Position numbers and translations under genes: made by a program | Assembly (NCBI GenBank): GCA_022574595.1 | Contig: JACZRS010000008.1 | Location: 30,919-94,918, forward strand | Direction of reading: 5' to 3' | DNA: 64,000 nucleotides | From: Planctomycetota bacterium | GTDB taxonomy: Bacteria; Planctomycetota; Phycisphaerae; Phycisphaerales; SM1A02 | Notes under the pieces: model-generated | The model's database searches: none | The model's input: only the letters and a program-made list of their open reading frames with translations | Told to the model about the DNA's origin: nothing | Part shown: positions 8,177 to 59,754 of the stretch, piece after piece | How positions within the stretch are numbered: the first letter of the stretch is position 1 | Layout of the letters: every line of letters begins with the position of its first letter

Positions 8177-8704
8177 ATGAACCACGAGAACTTATGGGCG
8201 CCTTGGCGGGCTGCGTATTTACGGGAGTTAGTTCGCAAGGCTGATGGGCTTGAAGATACTCAGCCGAATGCTGCGCCTTTTTTAATCGAGTATTGGCAGA
8301 ACCTTAAGGATGATGTTGCTAACCATGTAGTGTTTCGCAATGAGCATGGGATGGTGATTCTTAATCGTTATCCATATTCCAATGGGCATTTGCTGATTGC
8401 CTTGGGTGATCCCAGGCCGACGCTTCTGGAATATGAGCCGGATCAGCGAGCTGCCTTCTGGAAACTTGTAGAAATTGGTTGCGATCTATTGCAGCGAACA
8501 CTTAGCCCGCAGGGAATAAACATGGGGATCAATCAAGGAAGGGCAGCCGGGGCCGGTATTCCTGAACATCTGCACGCACATCTAGTTCCGCGCTGGAGCG
8601 GTGATACTAATTTCATGACTGTTGTTGGCGATATCCGCGTTATCCCAGATTCCCTGGAAAAGATGGCTGAGATGTTTCGCAAGGCCGCCTGTGAAAATAG
8701 GTAA
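8177..8704 (+). CDS. HIT-family nucleotide hydrolase/transferase
   Basis: The histidine triad appears as PEHLHAHLVPRWSGD, with the nucleotide-binding ILNRYPYSNGHLLI segment upstream. The N-terminal LWAPWRAAYL is typical of the HIT branch related to Ap4A phosphorylase. At 175 residues the length suits this branch. Substrates in the family are AMP- or ADP-linked nucleotides; the exact one cannot be told. It begins 36 bases after the DUF5916 gene on the same strand and could be cotranscribed. Confidence 0.88.
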   Translation: MNHENLWAPWRAAYLRELVRKADGLEDTQPNAAPFLIEYWQNLKDDVANHVVFRNEHGMVILNRYPYSNGHLLIALGDPRPTLLEYEPDQRAAFWKLVEIGCDLLQRTLSPQGINMGINQGRAAGAGIPEHLHAHLVPRWSGDTNFMTVVGDIRVIPDSLEKMAEMFRKAACENR

Positions 8705-8725
8705 TCTCAGCAAGCGAAAAGAAAA

Positions 8726-8948
8726 GGCGGCGCAAAGCCCCACTGGGATGCTAGTGGAATATTACTATCCCGTGCAAAAGGGATTTGCTTGAACCCCAAT
8801 GCAAAGTGGGTTCGCTCGCGTGCCGAACCCGGCCTTCCACTCGTTGGAGGCTTGACCATCGTCGATGCGGGCGATCCCTGAAGGGTAATTAGGCTCAAGC
8901 AAATGTACCCATTTGCGTCTAAGCGGCCCAGGGGGGCTTTACGTCGCC
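8726..8948 (-). ncRNA. Candidate structured RNA, class unknown (strand uncertain)
   Basis: No credible gene lies here, yet the ends pair over 16 positions: 8726-8741 against 8933-8948, 15 of 16 paired counting one G-U. Inside are further helices: 8745-8771 (GGGAT...ATCCC extended by AGT/ACT), 8788-8796 with 8892-8900 (GCTTGAACC/GGCTCAAGC), 8808-8830 (GGGTTCG/CGAACCC) and 8899-8916 (GCAAATG/CATTTGC). This closed-stem architecture of about 220 bases resembles 6S-like RNAs in outline, but I found none of the tmRNA, RNase P or SRP consensus blocks. The minus strand is favoured only because its 3' end runs into CCTTTTCTTTT. It could instead be a leader RNA on the plus strand. Confidence 0.45.
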
Positions 8949-9061
8949 GCTGTAATGATACCTTATGCTTTGCCTCAGGTCGATCAAATTCCCCATTTTG
9001 CCTCTGATTTTGCTGCCCAAATTATCTTGGTAAAAGTCTAGACCGTTTTGGGTATGAAATA

Positions 9062-9138: not shown

Positions 9139-9423
9139 ATGCGGAATCGTGTAACTTTGTTTTTAGGTGCTGTTTGTCTAATCGCAGTAAGTGGTTGCGG
9201 CAGTAGCAGCAATAATTCGGAATTTGCTTCGATCAGGAAGAATCTAACCCCTGAATTAGAGGGTTTGACCGGTCGTCGGGTCGATAATCAGCGCAATTTC
9301 GCGGTTAGTGAAAACCAGGATTTGCGAATGCTAAATGACGACATCAGACGGGCGTTTTTCTTAGACCACCCCAGCCGGTTGTCGCCATATCCGATCCTCT
9401 ATACCAACGGCAATCCTAACTAA
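9139..9423 (+). CDS. Small lipoprotein, unknown
   Basis: A 94-residue protein with a lipoprotein signal: a hydrophobic stretch LFLGAVCLIAV ending in the lipobox SGCG. The mature part is polar, with Asn/Ser after the Cys and then charged helical sequence. AAGAGG nine bases before the ATG supports the start; the nearby ATG at 9134 is out of frame and stops at once. It stands alone between a candidate promoter and a short terminator. Function unknown. Confidence 0.7.
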   Translation: MRNRVTLFLGAVCLIAVSGCGSSSNNSEFASIRKNLTPELEGLTGRRVDNQRNFAVSENQDLRMLNDDIRRAFFLDHPSRLSPYPILYTNGNPN

Positions 9424-9561: not shown

Positions 9562-10950
9562 GTGAGCCCAGTTGATGCTGCGATAAGCAAAGTTACCAAA
9601 GCGATTTCCTCATTTCATCCTGCTTCAATGCCCTTAATGACTCGTGGGCATTATCGACGAGAGCTTCTGGCGTGGTCGCTACTTCCGGTTGCTCTAGGTG
9701 CGGTCGAAGGAGGGGTCACAGGCGTTATCGCAAAGAACGCTTTTGAGGGAACAGTCTCACCAACAACTCTAAACCTTACGGTAGCTGTGCTTCAAGGCGC
9801 TCCAGCGCTGGCGAACGTCGTCAGCTTCCTATGGGCAGCAGTTAGTCATGGCAGGCACAAGATCCGTTTCCTGGCATCCTTGCAGCTATTGATGACTTTA
9901 CTAGTCGCAATGATTGCATTTGCACCAAAAAATGCCACGGGTTTAGGCATTCTCGTAATAGGAACTGTTGGGGCACGCATGGCTTGGGCAGGAGTTGTAA
10001 CGCTCCGATCGACAGTTTGGAGAGCAAATTATCCCAGACACGCACGAGCAACCATGGCTGGCAAACTAGCTGCGGTACAGGCGGTAATCATGGCTTTAAT
10101 TGCCTACGCAATCGGTAGTGCAATGAACTATAACGATGAAGCTTTTAGATATATGTATCCCATTGCAGCAGCTATTGGCCTAATCGGGGTAAGCGTTTAT
10201 AGCCGCATGAGAATGCGCGGCCACAAGGCGCTTTTAAATGCTGAAAAACAAAGCCAGCAAAACAGTACAACACTATTTAATCCTTTTGTATGGCGACAAA
10301 TACTGCTCGATGACCCGCGCTTTCGACGTTACATGACTTGCATGTTCGTATTTGGAACAGCAAATCTAATGGTTGGTGCGCCACTGATCATCATGCTTAA
10401 AGATCAATTCCATTTATCACAATCTATATCTGTTGCGATTATGACAACAATTCCTTTGCTGCTAATGCCACTGAGCATACCTATTTGGTCGCGGCTCTTG
10501 GATCGCGTAAATATCCTGCAGTTTCGTGCAATTCATTCATGGGCGTTTGTTACATCAACTGCAATTATCTTTGCCGCTGCAATTACAATGCAGCCCTGGC
10601 TTTTGTTCCTGGCTGCAGCGGCTAAGGGAATTGCCTTTGGAGGCGGAGTCTTGGCGTGGAACCTGGGGCATCATGATTTTGCAACTATCGACAAAGCCTC
10701 TCAATACATGGGTGTTCACGTAACACTAACTGGTATCAGAGGACTACTTGCTCCGATTATTGGAGTGAGTCTGTATCAAGTATTGGAGGAGGTTCACCCG
10801 GGGTATGGAGGAATAGTCTTTGGATTGTGTTTAGTTTTGTGCATAATCGGTGCTATCTGGTTTGTACGCATGAGGCGAGATCTGGACGGCCCAGGCTGCA
10901 ATAGCGAGTTTGAAGCAGGCCCACCAATTCAGCCACCGGCTGCTAACTAG
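9562..10950 (+). CDS. MFS-type transporter
   Basis: A 462-residue polytopic membrane protein with about twelve hydrophobic segments in two halves separated by a charged loop near residues 220-240 (RMRMRGHKALLNAEKQSQQ). Segments such as LLAWSLLPVALGAVEGG and FVFGTANLMVGAPLIIM have the composition of major facilitator helices. The start is a GTG at 9562; the hydrophilic first 30 residues leave open a start at an ATG further in. The substrate cannot be told from sequence. Confidence 0.8.
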   Translation: MSPVDAAISKVTKAISSFHPASMPLMTRGHYRRELLAWSLLPVALGAVEGGVTGVIAKNAFEGTVSPTTLNLTVAVLQGAPALANVVSFLWAAVSHGRHKIRFLASLQLLMTLLVAMIAFAPKNATGLGILVIGTVGARMAWAGVVTLRSTVWRANYPRHARATMAGKLAAVQAVIMALIAYAIGSAMNYNDEAFRYMYPIAAAIGLIGVSVYSRMRMRGHKALLNAEKQSQQNSTTLFNPFVWRQILLDDPRFRRYMTCMFVFGTANLMVGAPLIIMLKDQFHLSQSISVAIMTTIPLLLMPLSIPIWSRLLDRVNILQFRAIHSWAFVTSTAIIFAAAITMQPWLLFLAAAAKGIAFGGGVLAWNLGHHDFATIDKASQYMGVHVTLTGIRGLLAPIIGVSLYQVLEEVHPGYGGIVFGLCLVLCIIGAIWFVRMRRDLDGPGCNSEFEAGPPIQPPAAN

Positions 10951-56887: not shown

Positions 56888-57000
56888 ATTTAGCCGCGGT
56901 GCTTGCCCCGCGCTCTTTTTGAGTTTGAGCGATAATTGTAATTTTCTAAAAGAGCGCGTCGCAAGCGACGCGGCTAAATGTAGTTGAGACGCGGCTAAAT
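56888..57000 (+). repeat. TTTAGCCG repeat cluster, 3' side of the RAYT gene
   Basis: Three elements: TATTTAGCCGCGGTGCTTGC at 56888, then AGAGCGCGTCGCAAGCGACG with CGGCTAAAT at 56951-56979, and GAGACGCGGCTAAAT at 56986-57000. GCGTCGC...GCGACGC pairs. The last element holds the TAG stop of the transposase gene. Confidence 0.85.
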
Positions 57001-57558
57001 AACGTGTGTTTTATCGTATGGAGTCACAATTGACCATCGTTGCTCCCGCAATCCCTCGCGCAATGGATTCTTACGAACATAATTTATCGCTCTTTGCACA
57101 TCACTATCGGTATTCAAATACACATTCCAGCCATGATCCGTCCATGGCGAATGCTCTGCAAACCATCCATCTCTACGTAGAGATCTCGTTGCCTCTGATT
57201 TACAATGACCGATGGCATGCCTTATGTCTCGCCTTGTATAGCCGACAACCATATGAACGTGAGTAGGCATTACCGCAAGGGCGTGAAGATTATAAGGCGT
57301 TTGGCCAAATGCCATTGCAATTACATGCGCTTGATTACCGGTGAATCGTACTGGTTGATACTTCAGCGCACGCTGCATCTGTTTCTTTACATTTATATCA
57401 TAGGTATTACCCGCAATGGATCGCCTCGTATTGACAGTTGTAGCTTTACCGAATCGGTATAGCTCCCATGAGGCAACAAAGGTTGACCATGATCCGCGCG
57501 GCTCGTTGGGAAGCCAGGTTCCGTAAGTAGTGAAAACACTATGAAACGCCAGGATCAT
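56995..57558 (-). CDS. REP-associated tyrosine transposase (RAYT, Y1 HUH)
   Basis: A 187-residue single-strand transposase of the IS200-like Y1 group. TTYGTWLPNEPRGSW is a typical RAYT opening, MPTHVHMVVG holds the HUH pair (His100 and His102), and AINYVRKNPLREGL carries the catalytic Tyr160. All catalytic residues are present. It is flanked on both sides by TTTAGCCG palindromes. Its stop codon TAG is part of the flanking element (ATTTAGCCGC). It is likely the enzyme that spread this repeat. Confidence 0.9.
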   Translation of the reverse strand: MILAFHSVFTTYGTWLPNEPRGSWSTFVASWELYRFGKATTVNTRRSIAGNTYDINVKKQMQRALKYQPVRFTGNQAHVIAMAFGQTPYNLHALAVMPTHVHMVVGYTRRDIRHAIGHCKSEATRSLRRDGWFAEHSPWTDHGWNVYLNTDSDVQRAINYVRKNPLREGLREQRWSIVTPYDKTHVI

Positions 57559-57584: not shown

Positions 57585-57700
57585 GAAGAGCGCTTCGCAA
57601 GCGATGCGGCTAAATAGTGAATTTTCTCCATATTTAGCCGCTGTGCTTGCACCGCGATCTTTTTATCGAAGAGCGCTTCGCAAGCGAAGCGGCTAAATAG
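57585..57700 (-). repeat. TTTAGCCG repeat cluster, 5' side of the RAYT gene
   Basis: Three elements: GAAGAGCGCTTCGCAAGCGA with TGCGGCTAAATAG at 57585-57617, TATTTAGCCGCTGTGCTTGC at 57631-57664, and again GAAGAGCGCTTCGCAAGCGA with AGCGGCTAAATAG at 57668-57700. The first and third are near-identical. The third contains the TAG stop of thiC. Confidence 0.88.
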
Positions 57701-59453
57701 ACGCATCCTGTAATTGCTTGGCCTTTTCATCATCAACGTAATCGCTGTGGCATGAGAGTTTGTTTTCGTTTGAAGAGACGCCGCCCGCTGAAGCGGGTGC
57801 GCCGGTCATTTGCTTCTTGGTTTTGGCGGCTAGTTTATGGATCTCAGCCGGGCTTAACACGCCGCGCTTTTGGAGGATTTCTTTTTGTTCGATTGTTAGT
57901 GACGCGGAAATCGAGGGTTTATCCCATGCGTAATTTTCATCTTTACCTGAAATGAATTCCTGAATCTCCTTGGAAATGCGCACTGAACACCAATCGTGGC
58001 CGCACATCGCGCAGAAATCTGTATCAACGTCAAGATCTTCATCGTGAAACGCTCGTGCAGTATCGGGATCGAATGATAAATCAAAGTGCTTTTGCCAATT
58101 GAGTGCTGCTCGAGCTTTGGTTAATTCATCATCCCAATCGCGCGACCCCGGAATACCTAGCGCCACATCGGCTGCATGGGCAGCAATTTTGTATGCGATA
58201 CAACCTTGCTTTACATCATCTTTCTTAGGCAGGCCCAAATGTTCCTTTGGCGTAACGTAACAAAGCATCGATGCACCGTGGTAAGCAGCTGCGGTGGCGC
58301 CGATACAGCTTGTTATATGGTCGTAACCTGGAAAAACGTCCGTCACCAATGGACCCAGCACATAAAATGGTGCGCCATGGCAAAGTGTTCGCTGCAATTT
58401 CATGTTGTATTCGATTTGATCAAAGGGGACATGTCCAGGGCCTTCGACCATGACTTGTATGCCATTCGCCCAGGCACGTTCGGTCAGTTCGCCGATGGTC
58501 TCTAGCTCCGCAAGCTGCGCATCATCGGTTGCATCTGCAAGTCCGCCGGGCCTTAGGCCATCTCCAATTGAAAATGAAACATCGTATTCGTGCATAATCG
58601 CACAGATATCATCCCACAGTTCGTACATGGGATTTTGTTTGTTGTGATGCAGCATCCATTTTGCTAAAAGAGATCCGCCACGCGATACGATTCCTATGAG
58701 GCGATCCTTTACGAAAGGCAAATGTTGCCTAAGCAAACCCGCATGGATGGTAAAATAATCAACGCCTTGCTTAGCCTGATTTTCCAGCTCATTGAGAATT
58801 ATCTGGGCGTTTAAGTCTTCCAGCTTTCTGCCAATGATCATAGAATACAAGGGCACGGTTCCTATGGGAACGGTTGAGTTCTTTATAATAGCTTCGCGAC
58901 AAGCGTTGAGATCTCCGCCGGTTGATAGATCCATTGCAGTATCGCCACCCCATCTTATCGCCCACTGGAGTTTCTCGATTTCTTCATCTGTACCCGATGA
59001 AACTGGCGAAGCCCCCATGTTGGCGTTGATCTTGGTTAGCGATGCTCTGCCGATACACATGGGATCAAGTTTGTATGATAGATGCACCTTATTTGCGGGG
59101 ATAATCATTCTGCCGGCTGCGATCTCATCGCGCACCTGCTCAGCGCTTAGATGAATTTCGCGCTGAGCGACTCGCGTCATCTGCTCGGTTATGTTTCCTA
59201 ACCTTGCGTGTTCAAGCTGTGTAACAGGAGTTGACTTCTCACCTTGAGGCATAAAATCCCATGCGGTTAATGGCGATGGTTGAGGCATGCCCGGCGTGTC
59301 GGGGGATGAAAATGACAACGGCCCACCTACATCCGAAGCCAGCGCAAAACTTCCGAGGCTTGTGCCTTGCGATTGTGATGATGGATTTGCTGCGCCGATC
59401 AGAGGCCTGGCAAAGCGGTCATTTGCAATTAGATTTTCTTGTGGATGAATCAT
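57693..59453 (-). CDS. thiC: Phosphomethylpyrimidine synthase
   Basis: Radical SAM enzyme that turns AIR into HMP-P for thiamine. The [4Fe-4S] motif is [13 protein letters not shown] (C-x2-C-x4-C) near residue 490. The substrate region has [24 protein letters not shown] and [14 protein letters not shown], and the opening [20 protein letters not shown] is also conserved. The C-terminal tail after the cluster is extended and ends inside the palindromic element at 57668-57700. A TPP riboswitch precedes the gene. Confidence 0.96.
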
Positions 59454-59510
59454 TTGCGAGCGTCCTTTTTAAAAGTACAAGGATCGCCCGGCTTAGGGGA
59501 TTTAGAGGTC

Positions 59511-59604
59511 CGCGATCCCTACGCCGGTACGAACCGGATCAGGTTCCACGGGTCCGTCTCAGCTCCCTAAAAGTCGTTGACAACTTCCGGAGGCGCCCCG
59601 CGCG
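59511..59604 (-). ncRNA. TPP (THI-box) riboswitch
   Basis: Read on the minus strand the block contains AGGGAGCTGAGACGGACCCG, then TGGAACCTGATCCGGTTCG and TACCGGCGTAGGGATCGCGG, the conserved THI element, closed by a P1-like stem with GCGCGGGGC upstream. It lies about 60 bases before the thiC start. Thiamine diphosphate binding would lower thiC expression. Confidence 0.95.
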
Positions 59605-59754
59605 AACTGTGTAAGGATACACCAGTACCAATGATCCGCCAAATTACACAATAGTTCCTTGCTGATAAGTCGTTATTTGATACATTGATGATGCATTCCA
59701 TCTCCCGACCATGGAATAACTAAGAACAGGCGATCAGGCCTGGAGACTACAAAA

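Follow-up and report, generated by a model that had tools for sequence, protein, structure and literature searches.

A probable 6S RNA (SsrS) gene of diverged sequence on the minus strand of a Phycisphaerales-type planctomycete contig

Results and discussion

A structured block beside a HIT gene

Between positions 8726 and 8948 of the window (by which we mean the whole stretch of DNA analysed, 64 kb in length), there is a strongly structured block that lacks a credible gene and begins past the stop codon of a HIT-domain gene, with a small lipoprotein-like reading frame and then an MFS transporter gene lying on its other side (Table 1). The one listed open reading frame (ORF) of at least 60 amino acids inside the block is a 63-residue frame on the minus strand (8707-8898), which we take to have arisen by chance, and thus the preliminary description of a gene-free block after the HIT gene (stop at 8704) holds good. 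No tRNA or tmRNA was found in the window.

When folded, the stretch 8720-8960 reaches -105.8 kcal/mol as the plus strand (z -4.7) and -105.6 kcal/mol as the minus strand (z -6.2), and for either strand none of 200 dinucleotide-shuffled sequences folds as well, which bears out the earlier claim of a genuinely structured block. Moreover, the minus strand exceeds its own shuffles by more than the plus strand does. The terminal stem, previously described as having 16 positions, is returned by the folds as 15 pairs and one mismatch spanning 8726-8948, and it is strand-neutral, in that one wobble and one mismatch swap places between the strands. As for the flanking signals, the promoter-like match of the window is by itself no better than chance, while two terminator-like sites were counted in the stretch against 0.6 expected.

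Table 1. Features of the block and its neighbours, in window coordinates
Feature	Position	Strand	Basis
HIT-domain gene	8177-8704	+	PF01230; block begins past its stop
T-rich tract after the closing stem, terminator-like	8717..8725	-	tail of terminator-like site 8741-8724
6S RNA gene (very probable), whole transcript	8717..8948	-	Rfam RF00013 below cut-off, fold z -6.2, promoter- and terminator-like sites, homologues
Predicted ends of the 6S transcript	5' about 8948-8951; 3' within T-rich tract 8717-8725	-	
Closing (terminal) stem, 3' arm	8726..8741	-	folds
Small accessory hairpin, 6 bp, 3' side of closing arm	8756..8771	-	minimum-energy fold only
Conserved 6S core: P2 stem, central bubble, apical arm	8784..8903	-	R1 102.8 bits; A1
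P2 3' strand GGTTCAAGC	8787..8795	-	A1 columns 150-158
Central bubble, 5' side	8879..8891	-	pRNA predicted to start at 8889, give or take a few bases
P2 5' strand GCTTGAGCC, predicted pRNA template	8892..8900	-	A1 columns 4-12
Closing (terminal) stem, 5' arm	8933..8948	-	folds
Sigma-70-type promoter-like site TCGACC-17 nt-TATCAT	8955..8983 (8983-8955)	-	1 found vs 0.9 chance-expected
Small ORF, lipoprotein-like by eye	9139-9423	+	no Pfam match
MFS transporter gene	9562-10950	+	PF07690; after the lipoprotein-like ORF

Match to the Rfam 6S model

6S RNA is a known and widespread family, and it is the one returned by a covariance-model search, a check that the preliminary description had itself proposed. 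In a permissive search, the Rfam 6S model (RF00013) matches the block on the minus strand only, with a score of 21.7 bits that lies under the gathering cut-off of 46.4 bits, this cut-off being a detection threshold and not a property of the molecule. On the plus strand of the block, the 6S model gave no match at E-values up to 10, and at the block no Rfam family scores over its own cut-off. The model of a long non-coding RNA (NPPA-AS1_3) also aligns with the minus strand, at 19.7 bits against a cut-off of 55, which we attribute to chance under the permissive settings. Since 21.7 bits alone amount to a lead, the assignment was tested through homologues.

The shape of the RNA also brings to mind the actinobacterial Ms1, a 6S-shaped RNA bound to the core polymerase without the primary sigma factor; according to excerpts of PMC9130861, Ms1 RNAs resemble 6S RNA in having a central bubble, and the one of Mycobacterium was initially put forward as a candidate 6S RNA. 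However, the Rfam model of Ms1 gave no match to the block at E-values up to 10, whereas 6S matches are found both in the window and in its relatives. Moreover, the RNA here, at about 230 nt, is shorter than Ms1 (about 300 nt in the same excerpts), and its presumed pRNA-template strand is conserved. We therefore regard an Ms1-like RNA as highly improbable and keep to a 6S RNA.

Homologues and a lineage model

Among 61 related genomes, a DNA search with the block found matches in 25 (its own genome included), and the Rfam 6S model found matches in 19, with four of the 61 over the cut-off; genome searches over 40 genomes were run with stricter filters, by which weak matches are lost. Both kinds of match are present in 11 of the 61 genomes, always at the same place, and in these the 6S strand is opposite to the plus-strand query, as in the window. 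From the DNA and Rfam searches, 28 loci were chosen for an alignment (A1), which omits L023, L025, L030, and L031 (same places as L013, L003, L011, and L009, respectively) and in which the row of L017 is cut at the second GAACC copy, so that its P2 5' strand is missing. A covariance model of 121 positions (R1) was built from these 28 homologues, that of the window included.

R1 matches 54 of the 61 relatives, including 26 of the 33 outside the model building, and finds nothing in the other seven; each of the 19 Rfam 6S matches lies where R1 also matches, on the same strand. The genome of the window has a single R1 match (8784..8903, minus strand), with no second one in its assembly at E-values up to 10, and its score of 102.8 bits, for a sequence that is itself in the model, falls within the range spanned by the relatives (62.5 to 132.4 bits). 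For a reciprocal test, R1, a model made from the order alone, was applied, with filters switched off, to a region of 1,401 bases surrounding ssrS of Escherichia coli K-12. Here, the top hit falls within ssrS and on its annotated strand, with an end-to-end alignment, 26.7 bits, and an E-value of 1.6e-5, and the next best hit reaches 12.2 bits. R1 is a narrow model: in wider samples, it finds a match in 30 of the 198 genomes taken from the class and in 10 of the 246 taken from the phylum, and most of the genomes with a match are members of the order. Outside the order, it gave seven weak hits (35 to 46 bits), all seven of which are also Rfam 6S matches on the same strand, with four over the cut-off.

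The same model in this way joins the locus to accepted members of the family, namely relatives over the Rfam cut-off, E. coli ssrS, and all seven hits outside the order. On these grounds, the block is very probably a 6S RNA (SsrS) gene on the minus strand, with the sense direction running from about 8948 to 8717, of a Phycisphaerales-type planctomycete. As judged from sequence, this assignment rests on homology, although the window's own copy misses the Rfam cut-off that several of its relatives pass. The preliminary description was right in seeing a structured RNA with an overall shape like that of 6S RNA, while its label of an unassigned RNA gives way to what the covariance models and homologues return.

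Within the order as a whole, R1 matches 116 of 151 genomes, with one match each except in one genome that has two. This genome (G124) carries its matches on contigs C180 and C312, with 91.9 and 56.3 bits, possibly as a 6S-1/6S-2 pair. No R1 match was obtained in the other 35 of the 151 genomes; among the 20 of these that are listed, 15 belong to family f2 (six of them to genus g38), three to f1, and two to f5. Five nearly complete genomes without an R1 match (G037, G042, G046, G050, and G054) are of family f2. Genomes without a match would have either lost the 6S RNA or diverged too far for R1 to reach them. In G042, the block has a brief DNA match (33 bases, E-value 3.8e-4), which was considered as a 6S locus and rejected, as neither R1 nor the Rfam 6S model matches there (L070).

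Conserved structure and compensatory changes

Comparative folding in related genomes, likewise suggested beforehand, revealed many compensating changes. In A1, the P2 stem, the apical arm, and the inner helices pair in 95.0% of cells, two-sided changes are found in 15 of the 28 pairs, and the covariation score is reached by none of 500 shuffles. When the partners are slid by one to three columns, pairing drops to 27-48%, though the counted structure was drawn from A1 itself and is therefore favoured over the slid versions, and the row of L017 is cut short. These compensatory changes support the fold; their absence from homologues, which the preliminary description had named, along with the lack of a transcript, as grounds for giving up the candidate, is not what we observed. 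At A1 columns 7/155, a U-A pair replaces C-G in the window's genome alone, a change on both sides of P2, and the strand predicted as the pRNA template is nearly invariant throughout A1. The closing stem, which lies outside R1, was found in 12 of 13 loci with 23 to 31 pairs made of different letters, and in the thirteenth (L002) it was seen in a separate fold.

Taken together, the architecture of a 6S RNA is found here, with its long closing stem, central bubble, apical arm, and compensatory changes. Like E. coli ssrS (RF00013), within which R1 aligns from end to end, the RNA has a P2 stem, a central bubble, and an apical arm, and these are the real internal elements of the block. At about 230 nt, it is longer than a typical 6S RNA (about 180 nt in excerpts of PMC9130861), with part of the extra length coming from an accessory hairpin predicted on the 3' side. 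Hairpins of 4 bp or more on that side are present in 15 of 20 loci of the window's family, and 10 of 27 loci from other families have one as well. We have held back from reading the accessory hairpin as a mark of the family, as others carry it too, some of them probably through an included downstream terminator.

Strand

Read as the minus strand, A1 gives 30 consensus pairs and -31.1 kcal/mol, and as the plus strand, 15 pairs and -10.7 kcal/mol. Its wobble pairs, such as 11 U-G at columns 63/109 and six G-U at columns 53/120, become A-C mismatches on the other strand, and this wobble asymmetry points to the minus strand. Moreover, a -10-like box is found upstream of the sense 5' end, where the sense side scores better than the mirrored antisense side in 47 of 47 homologues; scoring covered 48 loci with repeated places left out, and L049, which was anchored at a wrong motif, is not in this count. 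An exact TATAAT occurs on the sense side in 21 of the 47 and in none on the antisense side. In a Wilcoxon test over all 48 loci, p is about 2e-9 against the antisense side and 7e-14 against shuffles, with L026 falling below its shuffled mean. The wobble pairs and the -10 boxes set the strand as minus.

The preliminary description named no strand; with minus as the predicted transcribed strand, internal hairpins drawn on the plus strand do not correspond to the true elements of the RNA. A structured RNA of a novel, unassigned kind on the plus strand would find some agreement in the stable fold of that strand (z -4.7) and in there being no Rfam family over its cut-off at the block. Against it, the antisense consensus holds half as many pairs (15 versus 30) at a third of the energy, the -10-like boxes in the homologues lie upstream of the minus-strand RNA, and Rfam gave no match on the plus strand at E-values up to 10. 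With the wobble asymmetry, the -10 boxes, and the strand of the Rfam match all speaking against the plus strand as the RNA, such a reading is vanishingly improbable, and the 6S RNA on the minus strand is retained.

Gene order around the 6S gene

In the window, the 6S gene is divergent from the pair of lipoprotein-like and MFS genes and points towards the end of the HIT gene. The gene order was compared in 47 homologous loci (48 minus the window's own, with L049 uncounted and repeats left out), for which flanks of up to 1,500 bases were used, some being clipped by contig ends. A lipoprotein-like gene, an MFS gene, or both are situated upstream in the opposite direction in 21 of the 47, and a HIT gene is nearby in 12, eight of which show the convergent arrangement of the window. 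At L006, L010, L011, and L039, the HIT gene is near the 6S gene and runs in the same direction, which suggests that the neighbourhood of the 6S gene has been rearranged locally.

In a second comparison, 80 named loci were picked by the MFS protein alone; most of their records carry titles of Planctomycetota, Phycisphaerales, or Phycisphaerae bins, and a few have other labels. R1 matches 54 of these MFS-anchored loci, and in 53 of the 54 the match lies on the upstream side of the MFS gene and is read away from it; some of the contigs are already in A1, and 36 of 64 distinct sequences are not. The other 26 of the 80, which include the close relatives L080 and L081 with full flanks, were without an R1 match, and nothing was found in the 16 of them that were searched again without filters or in the 10 that were searched with Rfam. 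When six of those genomes were searched whole with R1, the RNA was found elsewhere in five. With 54 of 80 loci having the RNA beside the MFS gene and five of six genomes having it elsewhere, the 6S-MFS order is common and not universal. At L080, L081, L087, L096, and L105, there is thus an MFS locus that lacks the 6S RNA in a genome with an R1 match elsewhere, which would mean either that the MFS gene there is a second copy or that the 6S gene has moved. As for the Rfam 6S model, at its cut-off it matches none of 18 MFS-anchored loci, of which R1 matches 13, and with permissive settings it matches three of 10, of which R1 matches nine.

Proposed mechanism and the collapse helix

Excerpts of PMC8876501 and PMC9130861 describe 6S RNA as a mimic of the open promoter, which binds the holoenzyme with the primary sigma factor and is freed by the transcription of a pRNA. 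For the RNA encoded in the window, the likely mechanism is likewise that of a promoter mimic released by a templated pRNA. Here, transcription would proceed on the minus strand from the promoter-like site at 8955-8983, and the long helix with its central bubble would imitate an open promoter and occupy the RNA polymerase holoenzyme that carries the housekeeping sigma factor. Once nucleotides return, the polymerase would copy the P2 5' strand into a short pRNA from near 8889, P2 would open, and the freed 3' strand would re-pair, whereby the RNA is released. The start is placed by position 15 of R1 (window 8889), whose counterpart in the alignment to E. coli ssrS is base 44, the base at which the pRNA of E. 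coli 6S RNA begins.

In most relatives, the partner for re-pairing would be the distal 5' bubble strand, giving a central bubble collapse helix, a pairing described in excerpts of PMC8876501 for the 6S-1 RNA of Bacillus subtilis and the 6S RNA of Aquifex aeolicus. The P2 3' strand (GGGGTTCGAGC in most members) is complementary both to the P2 5' strand and to the distal 5' bubble strand (GAACCCC), a complementarity that most relatives share with these two RNAs. On A1, the collapse helix pairs in 92.9% of cells, with weak covariation. Its duplex is better than at least 95% of bubble-strand shuffles (1,000 shuffles) in 58 of 63 distinct sequences, made up of 26 of 28 in A1 and 32 of 35 others, and in 39 of 62, a count without L017, its duplex energy is more favourable than that of P2; these values are two-strand duplex energies in which the rest of the molecule is ignored, and L124, at a contig end, was left out. 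Unlike the B. subtilis and A. aeolicus type, the window's own collapse helix is weak and no better than chance (-6.4 kcal/mol, with 9% of shuffles as good), against -13.2 kcal/mol for P2. A possible hairpin on the 3' side of the bubble, of the type seen in E. coli, pairs in 91.7% of cells of A1, though none of its pairs changes on both sides and it does not exceed shuffles.

The weak collapse helix and the low Rfam score (21.7 bits) are both what a decayed 6S gene, still recognisable and no longer functional, would be expected to show. Yet the R1 score of the window lies inside the range of its relatives, though the sequence is itself in the model, P2 has been kept through a two-sided change, the closing stem retains 15 pairs with one mismatch, and the gene order is kept as well, which makes decay very improbable beside an intact 6S gene. 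More speculatively, the 6S RNA of the order might be a two-state molecule, whose P2 3' strand pairs with either the template or a second, GAACC-like block of the bubble. In many species, the free RNA would then already be more stable in the collapsed state, so that the fold to be bound by the polymerase would be the minority one and the RNA would come off with unusual ease, with the lineage of the window having become single-state and P2-dominated; as a model, we consider this rather unlikely.

Relation to reported planctomycete 6S RNAs

Members of the order and phylum already score over the Rfam 6S cut-off, and for this reason no first-report claim is made; the 6S gene of the window is of a known kind and diverged. 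As regards the literature, a search by title and abstract start, with most subscription journals outside it, found no paper on the 6S RNA of this order. Excerpts of a paper on Thermogutta (PMC5673643) state that no 6S RNA was found in that planctomycete and refer to Wehner et al. (2014) for two further genera that lack it, Pirellula and Rhodopirellula. An excerpt of PMC2864571 mentions an additional file with expanded sets of 6S RNAs. With four of 61 relatives recovered at the standard cut-off versus 54 of 61 by the lineage model, this cut-off can miss the 6S RNA in most genomes of a group, and the absences reported for planctomycetes deserve re-testing with lineage models. The finding closes the lead of an unassigned RNA and, while ordinary in kind, is a useful correction of annotation. 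Moreover, if control by 6S RNA is general here, the growth-arrest physiology of these bacteria becomes directly testable.

Other features of the window

Elsewhere in the window, a TPP riboswitch is found on the minus strand at 59498-59610 (66 bits, over the Rfam cut-off), just upstream of a minus-strand ORF (57693-59453) that is ThiC-like by eye. Close by, an ORF of 187 amino acids (56995-57558, minus strand) resembles by eye the REP-associated (IS200-type) transposases.
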